From positions 1 through 64,000 of the forward strand of contig CALMNW010000064.1 in assembly GCA_937872095.1 (NCBI GenBank): a DNA stretch of 64,000 nt, read 5' to 3'. The notes beneath the pieces were generated by a model. The model was not told the origin of the DNA, did no database searches, and worked only from the letters and a program-made list of their open reading frames with translations. The DNA is from an uncultured Verrucomicrobiota bacterium (GTDB lineage Bacteria > Verrucomicrobiota > Kiritimatiellia > CAIQIC01 > Lenti-01). Shown in pieces: positions 4,782-51,631 of this stretch (its first letter is position 1; each line of letters begins with the position of its first letter). Made by a program: the position numbers and the translations under genes.

Positions 4782-6170
4782 ATGAGCAATTCCACTCGCA
4801 TTGAAAACGACTCCCTCGGCCCCCGCAACGTCCCCGCCGACGCGCTGTACGGCGCGCAAACGTCGCGTTCCATCGAGAATTTCCGCCTTTCCGGCGCCCC
4901 CCTGCCCATCGAAATCGTCCACGGGATGGCCCTGCTCAAGCTGGCCTGCGCCCGCGCCAACGCCAAGTTGGGGCTGCTGGCCGCGAACAAGGAAAAGGCC
5001 GTCGCCGACGCCTGCCGCGCCATCCTCTCCGGCGCCCACGACCGCGAATTCCCCATCGATCTCTACCAGGCCGGATCCGGCACCTCTTCGCACATGAATC
5101 TCAACGAGGTGCTCGCCAACCTCGCCAACGAGGCGCTCGGCGGAAAACGCGGCGCGAAGGCGCCCGTGCACCCGAACGACGACGTGAACATGGGCCAGTC
5201 CACCAACAACTGCTTTCCCTCCGGCGCGAAGATCGCCGTCCTCGGCCAGACGCTCCTGCTGCTCGACGCCCTGGCCGCGCTGGAAAAGACCCTGCGCGCC
5301 AAGGCCGCCGAATTCGCGCACGTCCTCAAGACCGGCCGCACGCACCTGCAGGACGCCGTGCCCGTGACCCTCGGGCAGGAATTCGGCGCCTACGCCCGCG
5401 CCGTCCAGCTTGCCGCCGAACGCATCCGCGCGGCCGCCGCGCGCCTCCGGGAACTCGGCATCGGCGGCAACGCGGTCGGCACCGGCATCAACACCAAACC
5501 CGCCTTCCGCGCCGAGATCCTGGCCGCGCTCAACGAGGAAACCGGCGGCGAGTTCCGGCCCGCCGAGGACGGCATCTACCTCACGCAATTCATGACCGAT
5601 TTCGCCCACGTTTCCGCGGCCTTCCGTTCCTGCGCGCTCGATCTCCAGCAGATCGCCAACAACCTGCGCCTGCTGGCGTCCGGCCCGTTGACGGGCCTCG
5701 GCGAAATCCGCCTGCCGCCCGTCGAACCCGGCTCCAGCATCATGCCCGGCAAGATCAACCCCTCCATCTGCGAAGCCGTCAACATGGTGTGCTTCCAGGT
5801 GCAGGGCCTCGACCACGCCGTGGCCCTGGCCTGCGGCGCGGGCCAGCTCGAACTCAACACGCACATGCCCCTGATCGGCGCAAACGCCCTGCAAGCCGCC
5901 AAGCTGCTCTCCGCCGCCGTCCGCGCCCTCGCCGAAAAGTGCGTGGCGGGCATCGCCGCCGACGAGGCGGCCTGCCGCCGCCACCTCGAGCGGAGCGCGG
6001 GACTCCCCACCCTCCTGAATCCGCGGCTCGGTTACGACCGCGTCGCCCAGCTCGTGAAGGAAGGGCTCGCCACCGGCCAGACCCTCAAGGAACTCGTGCT
6101 GGAACAGAAATTGCTGACCGCCGCCGAATACGAGGCGCTGCTCGCCTCTTCCACCGGTCCGAACCTGTGA
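4782..6170 (+). CDS. fumC: Class II fumarate hydratase / aspartase family
   Basis: RIENDSLGPRNVPADALYGAQTSRSIENF; signature GSSIMPGKINPSICE. ATG also at 4773. Confidence 0.92.
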   Translation: MSNSTRIENDSLGPRNVPADALYGAQTSRSIENFRLSGAPLPIEIVHGMALLKLACARANAKLGLLAANKEKAVADACRAILSGAHDREFPIDLYQAGSGTSSHMNLNEVLANLANEALGGKRGAKAPVHPNDDVNMGQSTNNCFPSGAKIAVLGQTLLLLDALAALEKTLRAKAAEFAHVLKTGRTHLQDAVPVTLGQEFGAYARAVQLAAERIRAAAARLRELGIGGNAVGTGINTKPAFRAEILAALNEETGGEFRPAEDGIYLTQFMTDFAHVSAAFRSCALDLQQIANNLRLLASGPLTGLGEIRLPPVEPGSSIMPGKINPSICEAVNMVCFQVQGLDHAVALACGAGQLELNTHMPLIGANALQAAKLLSAAVRALAEKCVAGIAADEAACRRHLERSAGLPTLLNPRLGYDRVAQLVKEGLATGQTLKELVLEQKLLTAAEYEALLASSTGPNL

Positions 6171-7255
6171 CCTCCGCGCGCGCTCCAGCTCCGGGCGCGA
6201 ACGGACTTCGCCACGGCGCCTTGCAAACCAGCGGACTGCCGGCGCGCATTCTCGCCGTGCTCCGCGCAGGCGGTTTCGCGACGCTCGGCGACCTCTGCCA
6301 CCCGCTCCCCGCCGGCGAACAGCTCGACGCCGACGACCGCGCCCTGCTGGCGCGCGTGGCCGCCTACGCCTGCGCCACCGCCGAAGGCCGGACGCCGACG
6401 CTGAATCTCGTCGAATGGCTCGCGCTGTTCCTGCCCCCGCGCCTGGCCGACGTCGTCCATCTCCACTACGCCCTGGAAGAACCGGCCGCCGCCCTGGCCC
6501 GCCACGAAGCCAAGCTGCGCGACACCGGCTTCAAGCTCGGCGTCACCCGCGAACGCGCCAGGCAACTGCTGGGACTGGCCGTCGGTTCCTTGCGCCAGGC
6601 CCTGCCGCTGGCCGCCGCCGAGCCGCTCTATCGCGCCGCGCTCGCCGCGTTGCACGAAGCCGGCGGCGTCCTCGATGTCGCCGCCCTCGCCCGCCGCGCC
6701 GATCCCGCCTGGGGCGGCGCCTCGCCCGTCGGTGCTTTTCTGCTGCTGACGCATCTCGTGCCCGGCCGCCTGACGCTCTATCGCGGCTTCTTCAGCGAAT
6801 TCTCCGCCCCCCTCGTCGAACGCGCGGAAAAGACCCTGCGCGATCGACTGGCCGCCGCCGCCGAATTGCAGCCCATCGCCGAAATCGCCGCCGGCCTGCC
6901 TAAATCCGCGCGGCCGCCCGGCGTCCCGTCCGCGGAACCGCTGTTGTCCGCCCTTCTGCGCCACCTGCCCGACACCCTGGCCACGCGCGACGGACGCGGC
7001 GGACTCGCAACGCGCCATGGCGCCCAGCTCCTGCGCGAAGCCCTCGCCGGGGCCGGCGAGCTGCCGCTGCGCACGTTGGTGGCGGCCTTCAACGAACGCG
7101 TCCGGCCCGAATGCCGGCGCGGCGCCGGCTACGTGCGCGACGTCCTCCGGGGCGATCCGCGCATCCGCAAGCCCGCCCCCGGCCGTTTTGCCTTCCCCGG
7201 CGGCCGCCAAACCGACTTGCCGATTCAGGTCTGGGAACCCACCCGGAAAACGTGA
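6167..7255 (+). CDS. DNA-binding protein with alpha-CTD-like, sigma-70 region-4-like and C-terminal HARE-HTH-like segments
   Basis: GTG start overlapping the fumC stop; LPARILAVLRAGGFATLGDL (HhH), FKLGVTRERARQLLGLAVGSLRQAL (sigma r4), C-terminal winged-helix-like DPRIRKPAPGRFAFPG. Confidence 0.6.
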   Translation: MTSARAPAPGANGLRHGALQTSGLPARILAVLRAGGFATLGDLCHPLPAGEQLDADDRALLARVAAYACATAEGRTPTLNLVEWLALFLPPRLADVVHLHYALEEPAAALARHEAKLRDTGFKLGVTRERARQLLGLAVGSLRQALPLAAAEPLYRAALAALHEAGGVLDVAALARRADPAWGGASPVGAFLLLTHLVPGRLTLYRGFFSEFSAPLVERAEKTLRDRLAAAAELQPIAEIAAGLPKSARPPGVPSAEPLLSALLRHLPDTLATRDGRGGLATRHGAQLLREALAGAGELPLRTLVAAFNERVRPECRRGAGYVRDVLRGDPRIRKPAPGRFAFPGGRQTDLPIQVWEPTRKT

Positions 7256-47332: not shown

Positions 47333-47875
47333 ATGCAAATCCTGAAGCTGAGCCGGGCCTTCACCTGGATCGAGCCGGGGCCGGTCGTCCTGATTTCCAC
47401 CTGCGACGGCCGGAAGAACAACCTCATGACCATCTCCTGGACGATGGTGGTGGATTTCACGCCGCGGTTCGCCCTGACCACCGGCGCGTGGAACCACTCG
47501 TTCCGGGCCCTCGACAAAACGCGCGAATGCGTCGTCGCGATTCCCGGCGCGGACTTGCTGGACGTCGTGGTGGGCATCGGCACGTGCTCGGGCGCGGAGG
47601 TCGACAAATTCGCCAAATTCCACCTCACGCCCCTGCCGGCGAAAATCGTCCGGGCGCCCTTGATCCAGGAGTGCCTGGCGAATATCGAGTGCAAGGTCGT
47701 CGACATCGTCCGGCGGCACGACATCGTCGTGCTGGAAGCCGTGGCCGCGCATCGAACCGCGGGCCGAAAGGAAACGCGCATGCTCCATGCGGTCGGCGAC
47801 GGCACGTTCATCGCGGACGGCCGGCGGCTGGATCGCCGGAAGGCCATGGCCGCCAAACTGCCGCCCGGCGTCTAA
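47333..47875 (+). CDS. Flavin reductase-like FMN-binding protein
   Basis: PVVLISTCDGRKNNLMTISWTMVVDFTPRFALTTG. Confidence 0.85.
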   Translation: MQILKLSRAFTWIEPGPVVLISTCDGRKNNLMTISWTMVVDFTPRFALTTGAWNHSFRALDKTRECVVAIPGADLLDVVVGIGTCSGAEVDKFAKFHLTPLPAKIVRAPLIQECLANIECKVVDIVRRHDIVVLEAVAAHRTAGRKETRMLHAVGDGTFIADGRRLDRRKAMAAKLPPGV

Positions 47876-47884
47876 AATTGCCCA

Positions 47885-47985
47885 TTTTCGAGCATTTTCG
47901 GGCCAAAATGGCCGATTTTGGACCGTTTTAGACCGAATTTCGGCGATTTTTCGCGATTTTCGGCCATTTTCGGCGATTTTTCGCA
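47885..47985. promoter_or_regulatory. Phased A/T-tract array, likely intrinsically curved DNA
   Basis: T4/A4 tracts starting at 47885, 47895, 47905, 47916, 47926, 47936, 47947, 47957, 47967, 47977. Confidence 0.7.
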
Positions 47986-48145
47986 GTTGGAGCCGGTTTT
48001 CGCCCGCAAGCCGCGATTCCCCTCGCCCACGATGCCATTTCCGGAACAGCCGCAAGGGCGGCACGACAGCTGCGATTTTCTTCCTCGGAATAAAGCGGAT
48101 TGACAGGACCTGCCCGAGCGATGACTCTCCGAGGGAGGCAAGGCG

Positions 48146-48910
48146 GTGGCAAAAAATATGAAGCAGCCGATTCAATCGCAACCGGAAACGGGCCGGGAAT
48201 CCGGCTTCCCCGTTACGCAGTGGTCCCTGGTTTCGCAAGCCCGCGAAACCGACACGCACGTCCGGATGGCGGCCTTGGACAACCTGTTGGGCACGTATCG
48301 CCCGGTTTTGCTTCGGTATCTCGTCGGGGTTTGGCGCTTGAAAACGGAGCAGGCCGAGGACTTGCTTCAGAGCTTCATGGCCGAACGGATTCTGGAAAAA
48401 CAGCTGTTGGTCCAGGCGGATCGGACACGCGGGCGTTTCCGCTCCTTCCTGCTGAAATGCCTCGTCAATTACGTGAAAAGCTCCTTTCGGCGGGACCAGG
48501 CCCTCAAGCGCGGGCCGGACGCGAACCACCGGGTGAACGTGGACGACTATGCGGAGTCCATCCCCGACAAGCAGGCGGGCCATCAGGAGTTCGACGCGTG
48601 CTGGGCGCGCCAGGTGCTGGATCTGGCCATCGAGCGCATGCGGAAAGACTGCGAAGCCGCGGGGCGCCGCGATCTCTGGATCATGTTCCAGCGCAGAATG
48701 CTGGAGCCCACCTATTCGAACGCGGAACCGACGCCGTATGCGTCGCTGGTCGCGGAACTGGGCCTCCGATCTCCTGCGCAGGCCATGAACCTGCTGATTA
48801 CGGTCAAACGGAAATTCCGGAACATGCTGATCGAGACCATCCGGGAAACCGTCGCGGACGATGCGGACGTCGATCGGGAAATCATGGAATTGCAGCGCGC
48901 CTTAAAATAA
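48146..48910 (+). CDS. RNA polymerase sigma factor, ECF-like, kinase-associated type
   Basis: FPVTQWSLVSQA...LDNLLGTYRPVLLRYL...AEDLLQSFMAERILEKQLLVQADRTRGRFRSFLLKCLVNYV. Confidence 0.8.
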   Translation: MAKNMKQPIQSQPETGRESGFPVTQWSLVSQARETDTHVRMAALDNLLGTYRPVLLRYLVGVWRLKTEQAEDLLQSFMAERILEKQLLVQADRTRGRFRSFLLKCLVNYVKSSFRRDQALKRGPDANHRVNVDDYAESIPDKQAGHQEFDACWARQVLDLAIERMRKDCEAAGRRDLWIMFQRRMLEPTYSNAEPTPYASLVAELGLRSPAQAMNLLITVKRKFRNMLIETIRETVADDADVDREIMELQRALK

Positions 48911-48977
48911 TTTTCTTTCCCATGCAGGATTCCCGCCGCGACGGCTTAGTACAGGATGAGGAACAGAAAGGCAAAGC

Positions 48978-49505
48978 ATGAACCACTCATCCCCAGAAAC
49001 CGAAAAGACAGATCCCGCCAGTTTGGCCCGACTGTTCGACGGCACGAGCCGGGACGCGCCCTGGCAAGACGAGGAACTGAAACAGGTGTTTCGCCATCAG
49101 CTGACGGCGCCCGTTCAGTTCGACATGGCGGGCTTCAACCCGGATTGGGGAGAACGCCTGCGGTTGCTGGCGGCGGCGGAGGGCCTCCTGCTCCAAAGCT
49201 TCGGCGATTTGTTTGCGCATCCCCATCCGCCGGTCGAAATGCTGGAGATGGTGAAGGATTACGCGAAACGGTCGGCGGCTTCGCCCCGGCGGCACATTCC
49301 GAAAGACGTCGCCCGCGCGCTCTACTACCTGGCGATCGTCTCCGCGCGGCTGCGCTGCCGCCAACGGATCAGTTCGCTGGAGGATGAACAACTGATCCGC
49401 GGAGTGCAATGGCTGCTGGATCAACCGTGGCTGGACGACGCATCGAAGAGCCTTTTATCCGAGGGCTTGGCCATGCTGGGTGGCCGGCAGGAGGTGAATC
49501 CATGA
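48978..49505 (+). CDS. Hypothetical protein between sigma factor and kinase
   Basis: Overlaps the kinase start by 4 nt; soluble, no family recognised. Confidence 0.7.
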   Translation: MNHSSPETEKTDPASLARLFDGTSRDAPWQDEELKQVFRHQLTAPVQFDMAGFNPDWGERLRLLAAAEGLLLQSFGDLFAHPHPPVEMLEMVKDYAKRSAASPRRHIPKDVARALYYLAIVSARLRCRQRISSLEDEQLIRGVQWLLDQPWLDDASKSLLSEGLAMLGGRQEVNP

Positions 49506-51631
49506 AAACCCATCGCGACGATTCGGAACGCAACACCGTGCCCATGTCGAAAGGCCCGGGAGATATCGCGCACACCATGCTGCGGACGGGCATGCTGCAG
49601 GCCCCCGTCCAGCCCGGAGCGCAGGGTGCGGTCGACCGGTTCGAAATCATCCAGGCGCTCGAGGCCGGCGGCATGGGACAGGTTTTCCTGGCCCGCGAAC
49701 CCATTACGGGCGGCCGGGTCGCCCTGAAAATGATTCGTCCCGAACTGGCGGACAAAGACTGGGTCGTGCAGCGGTTCCTGACGGAAGCCCAGCACATGTA
49801 TCGCCTCTCGCACCCCAACATCCTGAAGGTTCTGGAGGTGTCGGATCGGAAAGCCGGCCCGTATTACGTGATGCCGTTTATTGAGGGAGGCAACCTGGCG
49901 CAGCGGATCCGTTCGGGCGTGCCGTTGCCGGAGGAGTTTATCCTCCCGGTTTCCCTTCAACTGGCCGAAGCCCTGAAGTTCGCCCACGGCCGCGGGATCA
50001 TCCATCGCGACCTGAAGCCGGCCAACGTGATGGTCGATCAAACGGGGTGCGTCTATCTGACGGACTTCGGACTGTTGCGCACCGTATTCAACGATGCCAG
50101 CATCGATGCCGGAAAGGACGTGGTCGAGGGCACCGCCGTATACCTGTCGCCGCTGGCCGCATCCGGAAAAGCGGAAGACACGCGGTGCGACATCTATGCC
50201 TTCGGCGCCATTCTGTATGAGATGCTGACCGGCTGGCGGCCGTACTCCGGAGAGACCAGCGAGGAAATCATCCGGGAAATCCTGGCCCACCCTCCCTGCC
50301 CCATCCTCGAGCTCAATCCGCAGGCTTCGAAAGGCCTGACCCTGATTGCCGAAGGCTGCATGGCACGGGAACTGCGCGACCGTTACGCGGAAATGGCCGA
50401 CGTCGTTCGCGACCTCCAACGAGTTGCCCGCAAGGAAACTCCGGCGGGGCCGCATGGCCGGCCGGCTTCCATGCGCACCGCTGGAAAATTCATAAAAGTG
50501 GCTTTGGTTGGCGTGGCTGGCGTGCTGGGCCTGGCCGTTGCCGCTTCGCTCTTCTGGTCGGCCCCGCTTGCCTTTCATGCGGGAACGCAACCGGAGTCAA
50601 AATTCTTCCGCAGCAAATTGGCTAAGATCGACAAAGGAGTTCCGCCACGGCCAAGCCTCGCCGAACTGCCCGATCCGGTGACCGAAAAGGCCAGGTATCT
50701 GGCGACGGAACCCAAAGAGGTTCTGCAGCAATACGTCTGGATTGAATCCGATCACTCGGTCTATTTTGCCCGGCGAATCATTTGCAAAAACTGGTCGCAG
50801 GACGCGATGACGGATATCACGATCCCCTGGACGAACGGGGTCGTCATGCAGGTGTTCGACTACAACGGAAATGCGCTACCATTGACGGAAGAGGCCGACC
50901 ATGCCCGCTGGCGGGTCACGCTGGAGGAACCGATTCCGCCGGACTGGACATTCAGACTGGTCGTGGTGGCCAGGCAAACCGACCTGCCGTTCTCATCGTC
51001 CAACGGCGTGACCACCTACTCATCCGACCTGATGGCATCCTCCGGCATTTTCTTCCCTCCGGGCGCTCGTCTGGTCGGGCAAATGCCCGCGACAAATATA
51101 AACGGACGCATGTTTTTCGTGAATAGACTCAACAGTCATGAGTGTTTCACCCATGCGGATGCGGCCAATCGCGCCTTCGATATTTACGAGCGGGAAGGCC
51201 GCAAGACGGACTCTCCCGCCGCCCATTGGAATCAGGCGCTGGCCGAGTTGGGCCTGGAAGAAAATCAATTGGTTCAACCCCCTCCCTTGCCGGAACAAAG
51301 CACCCATCGCCAGATCAGTTATACCTTACATTCTTCTGAACAAGCCGATGGAGAAGAGAAAACGCCGCCTCCCGCCATGTATTCCCTGCAATTCAAGCAA
51401 GCTCCCATTCGGCTCGTTACGGATTACTACGGGCAGCTTGCGGGACAAACCGTGCTGCTGAGCCAGCAGGTCGACCCTGCCGCGAACCTGACCCTGAAAT
51501 CCAATGACCGCATACCCAAATCGCAGGCCATGCGCATGATCGAAACCGCGCTGGCCGATCAGGGCATCCTGCTCATCGAAACGAACGGGTGCCGGATGGC
51601 TATACCGGCAGCAAAAACGCGCGCCCCCTAA
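49502..51631 (+). CDS. Ser/Thr protein kinase, TM, extracytoplasmic region ending in secretin-N1-like domain
   Basis: GGMGQVFLA, VALKMI, HRDLKPANVMVD, TDFGLL; TM VALVGVAGVLGLAVAASLFW; C-terminal APIRLVTDYYGQLAGQTVLL...LTLKSNDRIPKSQAMRMIETALADQGILLI. Confidence 0.88.
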   Translation: MKTHRDDSERNTVPMSKGPGDIAHTMLRTGMLQAPVQPGAQGAVDRFEIIQALEAGGMGQVFLAREPITGGRVALKMIRPELADKDWVVQRFLTEAQHMYRLSHPNILKVLEVSDRKAGPYYVMPFIEGGNLAQRIRSGVPLPEEFILPVSLQLAEALKFAHGRGIIHRDLKPANVMVDQTGCVYLTDFGLLRTVFNDASIDAGKDVVEGTAVYLSPLAASGKAEDTRCDIYAFGAILYEMLTGWRPYSGETSEEIIREILAHPPCPILELNPQASKGLTLIAEGCMARELRDRYAEMADVVRDLQRVARKETPAGPHGRPASMRTAGKFIKVALVGVAGVLGLAVAASLFWSAPLAFHAGTQPESKFFRSKLAKIDKGVPPRPSLAELPDPVTEKARYLATEPKEVLQQYVWIESDHSVYFARRIICKNWSQDAMTDITIPWTNGVVMQVFDYNGNALPLTEEADHARWRVTLEEPIPPDWTFRLVVVARQTDLPFSSSNGVTTYSSDLMASSGIFFPPGARLVGQMPATNINGRMFFVNRLNSHECFTHADAANRAFDIYEREGRKTDSPAAHWNQALAELGLEENQLVQPPPLPEQSTHRQISYTLHSSEQADGEEKTPPPAMYSLQFKQAPIRLVTDYYGQLAGQTVLLSQQVDPAANLTLKSNDRIPKSQAMRMIETALADQGILLIETNGCRMAIPAAKTRAP

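Follow-up and report, generated by a model that had tools for sequence, protein, structure and literature searches.

What does a protein of no recognised family do between a sigma factor and a Ser/Thr kinase, and what might such a kinase detect when its extracytoplasmic end resembles part of a secretin? These questions are raised by three consecutive genes at positions 48146-51631 of the window, the whole 64,000-nucleotide stretch of DNA from an uncultured Verrucomicrobiota bacterium that was analysed here. A preliminary description of this DNA had placed three co-directional ORFs at the site and proposed that a sigma factor, an unknown protein and a kinase work as one system. The gene arrangement was confirmed, and because the three-gene synteny is conserved across the class, a chance association is ruled out and the view of a single system is supported. 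All conclusions on mechanism given below are based on sequence, and many of the relatives compared come from metagenome-assembled genomes.

Layout of the sigma factor, protein X and kinase genes

The first gene (48146..48910, + strand) encodes an ECF-like sigma-70 factor of 254 aa without a transmembrane helix (TM). It is a divergent member of its family, with weak profile matches to TIGR02937 (E=6e-4) and Sigma70_r2 (E=0.013) that both stay under the Pfam/NCBIfam cut-off, and it is 52% and 49% identical to the sigma factors of the related loci L028 and L029, respectively. Its start codon is GTG, with an in-frame ATG at 48158. Just 5' of the gene, low-complexity AT-rich tracts (attttcggcgattttt-like repeats) were seen at 47872-48010. 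The second gene (48978..49505, +) encodes protein X, a soluble, predicted all-helical protein of 175 aa, and its stop codon overlaps the ATG of the kinase gene as ATGA. This ATG at 49502 is most likely the true kinase start, rather than that of a longer ORF at 49409.

The third gene (49502..51631, +) encodes a transmembrane Hanks-type Ser/Thr kinase of 709 aa. Its kinase domain (49643..50386, +; Pkinase E=6e-42) carries the catalytic residues K76, E95, D170, K172, N175 and D188 expected of such kinases and is well conserved in near relatives, with 73% identity to that of L028. The Glu of the APE motif is replaced by Leu (L218; window 50153-50155); the same position is L, S, R or G in 13 near-member kinases and is kept as Glu in L116-L119. 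A single TM helix was predicted at residues 333-351 (50498..50554, +; Kyte-Doolittle). At the N-terminus, most of the L107-L115 kinases start with a zinc ribbon-like CxxC...CxxC segment, instead of which the kinases of the window, L028 and L029 have a conserved GMLQAP-type segment, with a similar one in L106.

Linkage of protein X to one sigma factor subfamily

X was present in 18 of the 346 genomes of the class (E<=0.001). One of these matches, in G257, was weak, frameshifted and without a neighbouring sigma factor or kinase gene; in the remaining 17 genomes the sigma factor, X and kinase genes stand side by side, 16 of these loci (the window, L028, L029, L106-L115 and L117-L119) having the order sigma-X-kinase and one (L116) a convergent kinase gene. 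The L116 locus also holds a second, divergent X copy (6535-7068, +) adjoining its sigma-X pair; another sigma factor gene was not seen in this locus. Searching with the sigma factor alignment showed how closely X follows this subfamily: all 16 complete matches of at least 215 bits, as well as a split gene in G079, have X, after which the scores drop to 154 bits or less. Among these more distant sigma relatives, X was found in none of the 13 loci examined, counted from short loci for which roughly 1.5 kb had been fetched, and a kinase gene was present in 8 of the 13, mostly directly 3' of the sigma factor gene. Because the distant relatives are without X and 8 of 13 have a kinase gene in the stretch fetched, it seems that X joined a two-gene pair of sigma factor and kinase in one lineage; the reverse history, in which the distant relatives lost X, could also account for this distribution.

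Trees of sigma factor, X and kinase have their main groups in common, with several forks weakly supported. X of the window is 52% and 48% identical to X of L028 and L029, and in a sample of 199 genomes from the phylum to which the Brocadiia genome belongs, X was present in 8. Genomes of the same genus gave no clean empty site, and the flanks there are not syntenic.

The preliminary description had called the middle protein unrecognised, and this was borne out, as Pfam and NCBIfam give nothing for X and no sequence relatives were found in Pfam or the PDB. X is therefore treated here as a new family. Its structural model is all-helical and without TM (pLDDT 84, pTM 0.77), and comparison with solved structures, anti-sigma domains included, returned no Foldseek match at E<=0.001, neither to a class I ASD nor to another known anti-sigma structure. 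An anti-sigma-like role of X is thus suggested by linkage and fusion, not by fold. The best evidence that X acts on the sigma factor is provided by the fusions: in L161, sigma factor and X form a single ORF of 468 aa (5316-6719, -) on a contig of 6.76 Mb, with X at the C-terminus, and in L164 a degenerate sigma factor and X share a single ORF (5133-6224, -). Since X is fused to sigma in these two other genomes, X probably acts on sigma; the L161 fusion is just as compatible with X serving there for activation or targeting. In the alignment of 28 X proteins, the strongest Ser/Thr column is position 132 (S132; 49371..49373, +), where 27 have one of these two residues; on this basis S132 is a candidate phosphosite, no more, and may have a structural role instead.

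How the kinase might act on the sigma factor depends on region 2.2. In ECF43 sigma factors, the kinase supplies a negative charge that is missing from this region (PMC8999054; PMC13147305), and the preliminary description had named EcfP-PknT as a known example of such a pair. A close parallel to it is not supported: the sigma factor of the window retains an acidic pair, E71 and D72, in the motif EQAED (48347..48361, +), and ED or DD was found in all 17 sigma factors of the class, whereas EcfP and ECF43 lack the acidic pair (PMC8999054). An EcfP-type loss of the DAED motif was accordingly rejected, and the STTA/QTTA motif is absent from region 2.2 of the same 17 proteins. Because the acidic residues missing from EcfP/ECF43 are kept, a mechanism like that of EcfP would not be the first choice here, and the sigma factor would need no phosphorylation for contact with RNA polymerase.

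This bears directly on an EcfP/EcfK-like scheme, in which the kinase phosphorylates and activates the sigma factor directly and X is a mere adaptor joining the two. Direct phosphorylation is the known mechanism of sigma-STPK pairs (PMC8999054; PMC13147305), in which phosphosites in the linker also matter (PMC13147305), and both an invariant threonine of the sigma factor, T24, and the distant relatives that adjoin a kinase without X are consistent with it. However, the conserved acidic pair and the missing STTA/QTTA motif argue against such a scheme, as does the strict tie of X to this sigma subfamily together with its fusion to sigma elsewhere, and we regard it as doubtful. A sigma factor that can bind RNA polymerase without help would have to be held back. 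Being encoded next to sigma throughout this subfamily, and sometimes fused to it, X is the natural candidate for holding it back, and inhibition would be its simplest role.

A GspD-type N0 domain at the end of the kinase

The extracytoplasmic part of the kinase begins with a juxtamembrane region of about 260 aa (50597..51385, +), which the structural model shows, at low confidence (pLDDT about 26-68 by blocks), as rich in beta structure and for which a 237-aa query retrieved only itself in 289 genomes of the phylum. It is followed by a C-terminal, STN-like N0 domain of the GspD type (residues 629-696; 51386..51589, +). The profile PF21305 (type_II_gspD_N0) matched the C-terminal piece with 28.8 bits against a cut-off of 27, and the kinase with 28.2 bits in the genome scan and 23.5 bits in the full-length scan. 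In addition, a profile of the kinase N0 and 18 relatives matched PDB entries of GspD N0 (best E=6e-7), AlphaFold modelled most of the domain at pLDDT 91-98, and the best-fitting chains of XcpQ and ETEC GspD N0 superposed on it at 1.3-1.8 A over about 80 residues in Foldseek, some other listed secretin chains fitting more loosely. The domain also retains the conserved residues of the family, and both profile and fold place it in the GspD N0 family (PF21305).

The preliminary description had assigned the kinase C-terminus to secretin N1 domains. Its recognition of a secretin-type extracytoplasmic domain stands, and the AlphaFold model agrees with the expectation that it had set for this end, an N0 or N1 fold; the domain is, however, N0 and not N1. 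The N1 identity was rejected on the PF21305 match, the GspD N0 structures and the XcpQ/GspD fits, and no PF03958 (N1) match was found in the kinase at E<=1, whereas the PilQ of the window does match PF03958. The PilQ peptide that had served as the N1 comparison lies in the STN/N0 part of that protein (PF07660 252-295, PF21305 234-268), the N1 of which is at 331-405.

Comparing the kinases of related loci showed different sensor ends. Those of L028 and L029 have four predicted TMs after the kinase domain, followed in L029 by apparent TPR repeats, while other relatives end in one TM and apparent TPR repeats (TPR assignments were made by eye), one has a different extracytoplasmic region and some have none. 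On sequence comparison, the sensor end of the kinase is swapped between relatives. Among 107 loci with a kinase match, a set of fetched loci rather than a survey of all genomes, N0 was found only on copies of the window's own kinase. As the related systems examined are without N0, detecting secretins cannot be what the module does in general.

N0 domains were also found on proteins other than kinases and secretins. The best match to the kinase N0, with 44% identity, is a tandem-N0 ORF in G128, the genome of L028. This ORF (L121 1-1401; G128:C296) is cut by the contig end and carries GspD-type N0 domains in tandem, at least two of them complete and one partial, followed by two Big_5 domains. 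Genes on its contig are 74-75% identical to those downstream of the L029 kinase, and because of these neighbours the N0-repeat gene is probably located downstream of the G128 kinase; the ends of the kinase contig and the N0-repeat contig share no 20-mers that would join them. Near the L029 kinase, a relative of the N0-repeat ORF has the Big_5 part without N0. Two exported proteins (L121 1911-3899 and L029 11270-12991), 75% identical to each other and C25 (gingipain-type) peptidase-like by eye, are encoded on the N0-repeat contig in G128 and, in L029, downstream of the kinase locus. The genome to which the window belongs encodes two small exported proteins (L167 5238-6032, -; L168 1798-2280, +) that have a single N0-like domain each, one above and the other below the Pfam cut-off, and no secretin pore domain. 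The same genome encodes a PilQ-like secretin, in the window, and GspD-like secretins elsewhere.

With both kinds of secretin encoded and the kinase N0 being GspD-type, the N0 could dock on PilQ or GspD and report on secretin or pilus assembly, the idea put forward in the preliminary description. Against this stand the non-secretin N0 proteins of the own and the sister genome, the other sensor ends of related kinases and the lack of any operon link to secretion genes seen, so that docking on a secretin is unlikely. Cell-surface signalling by a kinase, in which the ectodomain would bind the STN of an outer-membrane transducer as does the C-terminal domain of FecR/PupR, carries the same low probability. 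PupR regulates a sigma factor; its binding partner is a TonB-dependent transducer, of which it recognises the STN-type signalling domain, and its ectodomain consists of an all-beta juxtamembrane subdomain and a C-terminal STN (PMC7186176). Of the systems compared, PupR comes closest to the kinase in ectodomain layout, the kinase having a TM at 333-351, a region modelled as beta-rich and a C-terminal periplasmic STN-type domain at 629-696. Nevertheless, the beta region is modelled at low confidence, no PupR fold was among the best 50 matches listed and no TonB transducer was noticed adjoining the operon. Because the beta-rich region is poorly modelled, the PupR comparison is limited to layout and the N0/STN domain. 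A passive N0 domain, serving dimerisation or stability without a sensory role, would fit the free variation of sensor ends between close relatives and the single occurrence of N0 on a kinase among the loci examined, but is the least probable of these alternatives given that the domain retains the conserved residues of its family, unlike a decaying remnant.

The resemblance of the ectodomain layout to the periplasmic part of PupR suggests, by analogy, that N0 lets the kinase monitor a partner bearing N0/STN and the state that this partner is in. Since such domains also occur in L121, in the lone-N0 proteins and in PupR, a secretin is one candidate among several.

A three-part membrane-to-transcription switch as a model

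We propose that the three proteins form a switch from membrane to transcription, in which X is anti-sigma-like and the kinase changes the contact between X and sigma, and assign this reading a probability of roughly 0.45. The kinase would span the inner membrane once, and its ectodomain, the beta-rich region with the C-terminal N0/STN, would bind a periplasmic partner, probably one with an N0/STN-type or matching domain; a TonB-type transducer, a secretin and the exported lone-N0 proteins are candidates. Kinase activity would be altered when this partner binds or is released. X would be the dedicated partner of the sigma factor, most likely keeping it inactive; phosphorylation of X and/or sigma by the kinase would then change the X-sigma contact, and the sigma factor would direct a regulon. 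Direct support from the sequences covers the three-gene module with its strict conservation, the X-sigma fusions, the intact catalytic residues, the N0 fold and the sensor swap; that X inhibits, that X or sigma is phosphorylated, and what kind of protein N0 binds, we infer.

Parts of this module resemble known systems. In EcfP-PknT of Vibrio, EcfK-PknS of Xanthomonas and ECF43, an alternative sigma factor is likewise encoded beside a Ser/Thr kinase that spans the membrane and varies in its extracytoplasmic end, and the extracytoplasmic domains of ECF43 kinases are diverse (PMC13147305); in contrast to ECF43, the module described here keeps the acidic 2.2 motif and has X as a third conserved protein and an N0 sensor. 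In other ECF groups linked to kinases, an acidic 2.2 motif may be present, and how these groups work is described as an open question (PMC8999054). For the planctomycete STPK-linked groups ECF59, ECF61, ECF62 and ECF217, phospho-control is predicted in review despite a possible DAED-like motif. Their sigma-kinase neighbourhood, in related phyla, is like that of the window, but the reviews consulted describe no third component such as X. ECF41/ECF42-type sigma factors have regulatory C-terminal extensions, and X of L161 is likewise fused to the sigma C-terminus; X is, however, a different helical family and usually a separate protein. On the periplasmic side, profile and fold of the N0 are those of GspD/XcpQ, whereas the domain here is C-terminal on a kinase ectodomain that has neither N1-N2 nor a secretin pore domain. 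Like the kinase as modelled, FecR/PupR regulators are inner-membrane proteins in which a beta region precedes a C-terminal STN, and they control an ECF sigma factor; here, a cytoplasmic kinase takes the place of the anti-sigma domain, no FecR-type anti-sigma family being among the Pfam matches of the kinase, and the signal would be phosphorylation, not proteolysis.

Kinase-linked sigma factors are already known, and the three-part module with an N0 sensor is a variant of them; a limited, incomplete literature search found no reports of a third conserved component or an N0 kinase sensor. Only tentatively do we put forward that X represents a sigma-binding regulator of a new class, under Ser/Thr phosphorylation, and that this genome has made the module a kinase-type cell-surface signalling system by grafting a secretin/STN-type N0 domain onto the kinase. 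If this is true, it is a kinase, and not a FecR-type protein, that senses the condition of an outer-membrane machine or of a periplasmic N0 protein. For one subfamily, X points to a specific mechanism that can be tested, namely that the kinase may work through X and not on sigma. The fusion of N0 to a kinase suggests that a secretin domain is used as a receptor module, and makes it possible to ask if bacteria use phosphorylation to signal the state of their outer-membrane secretion machines.
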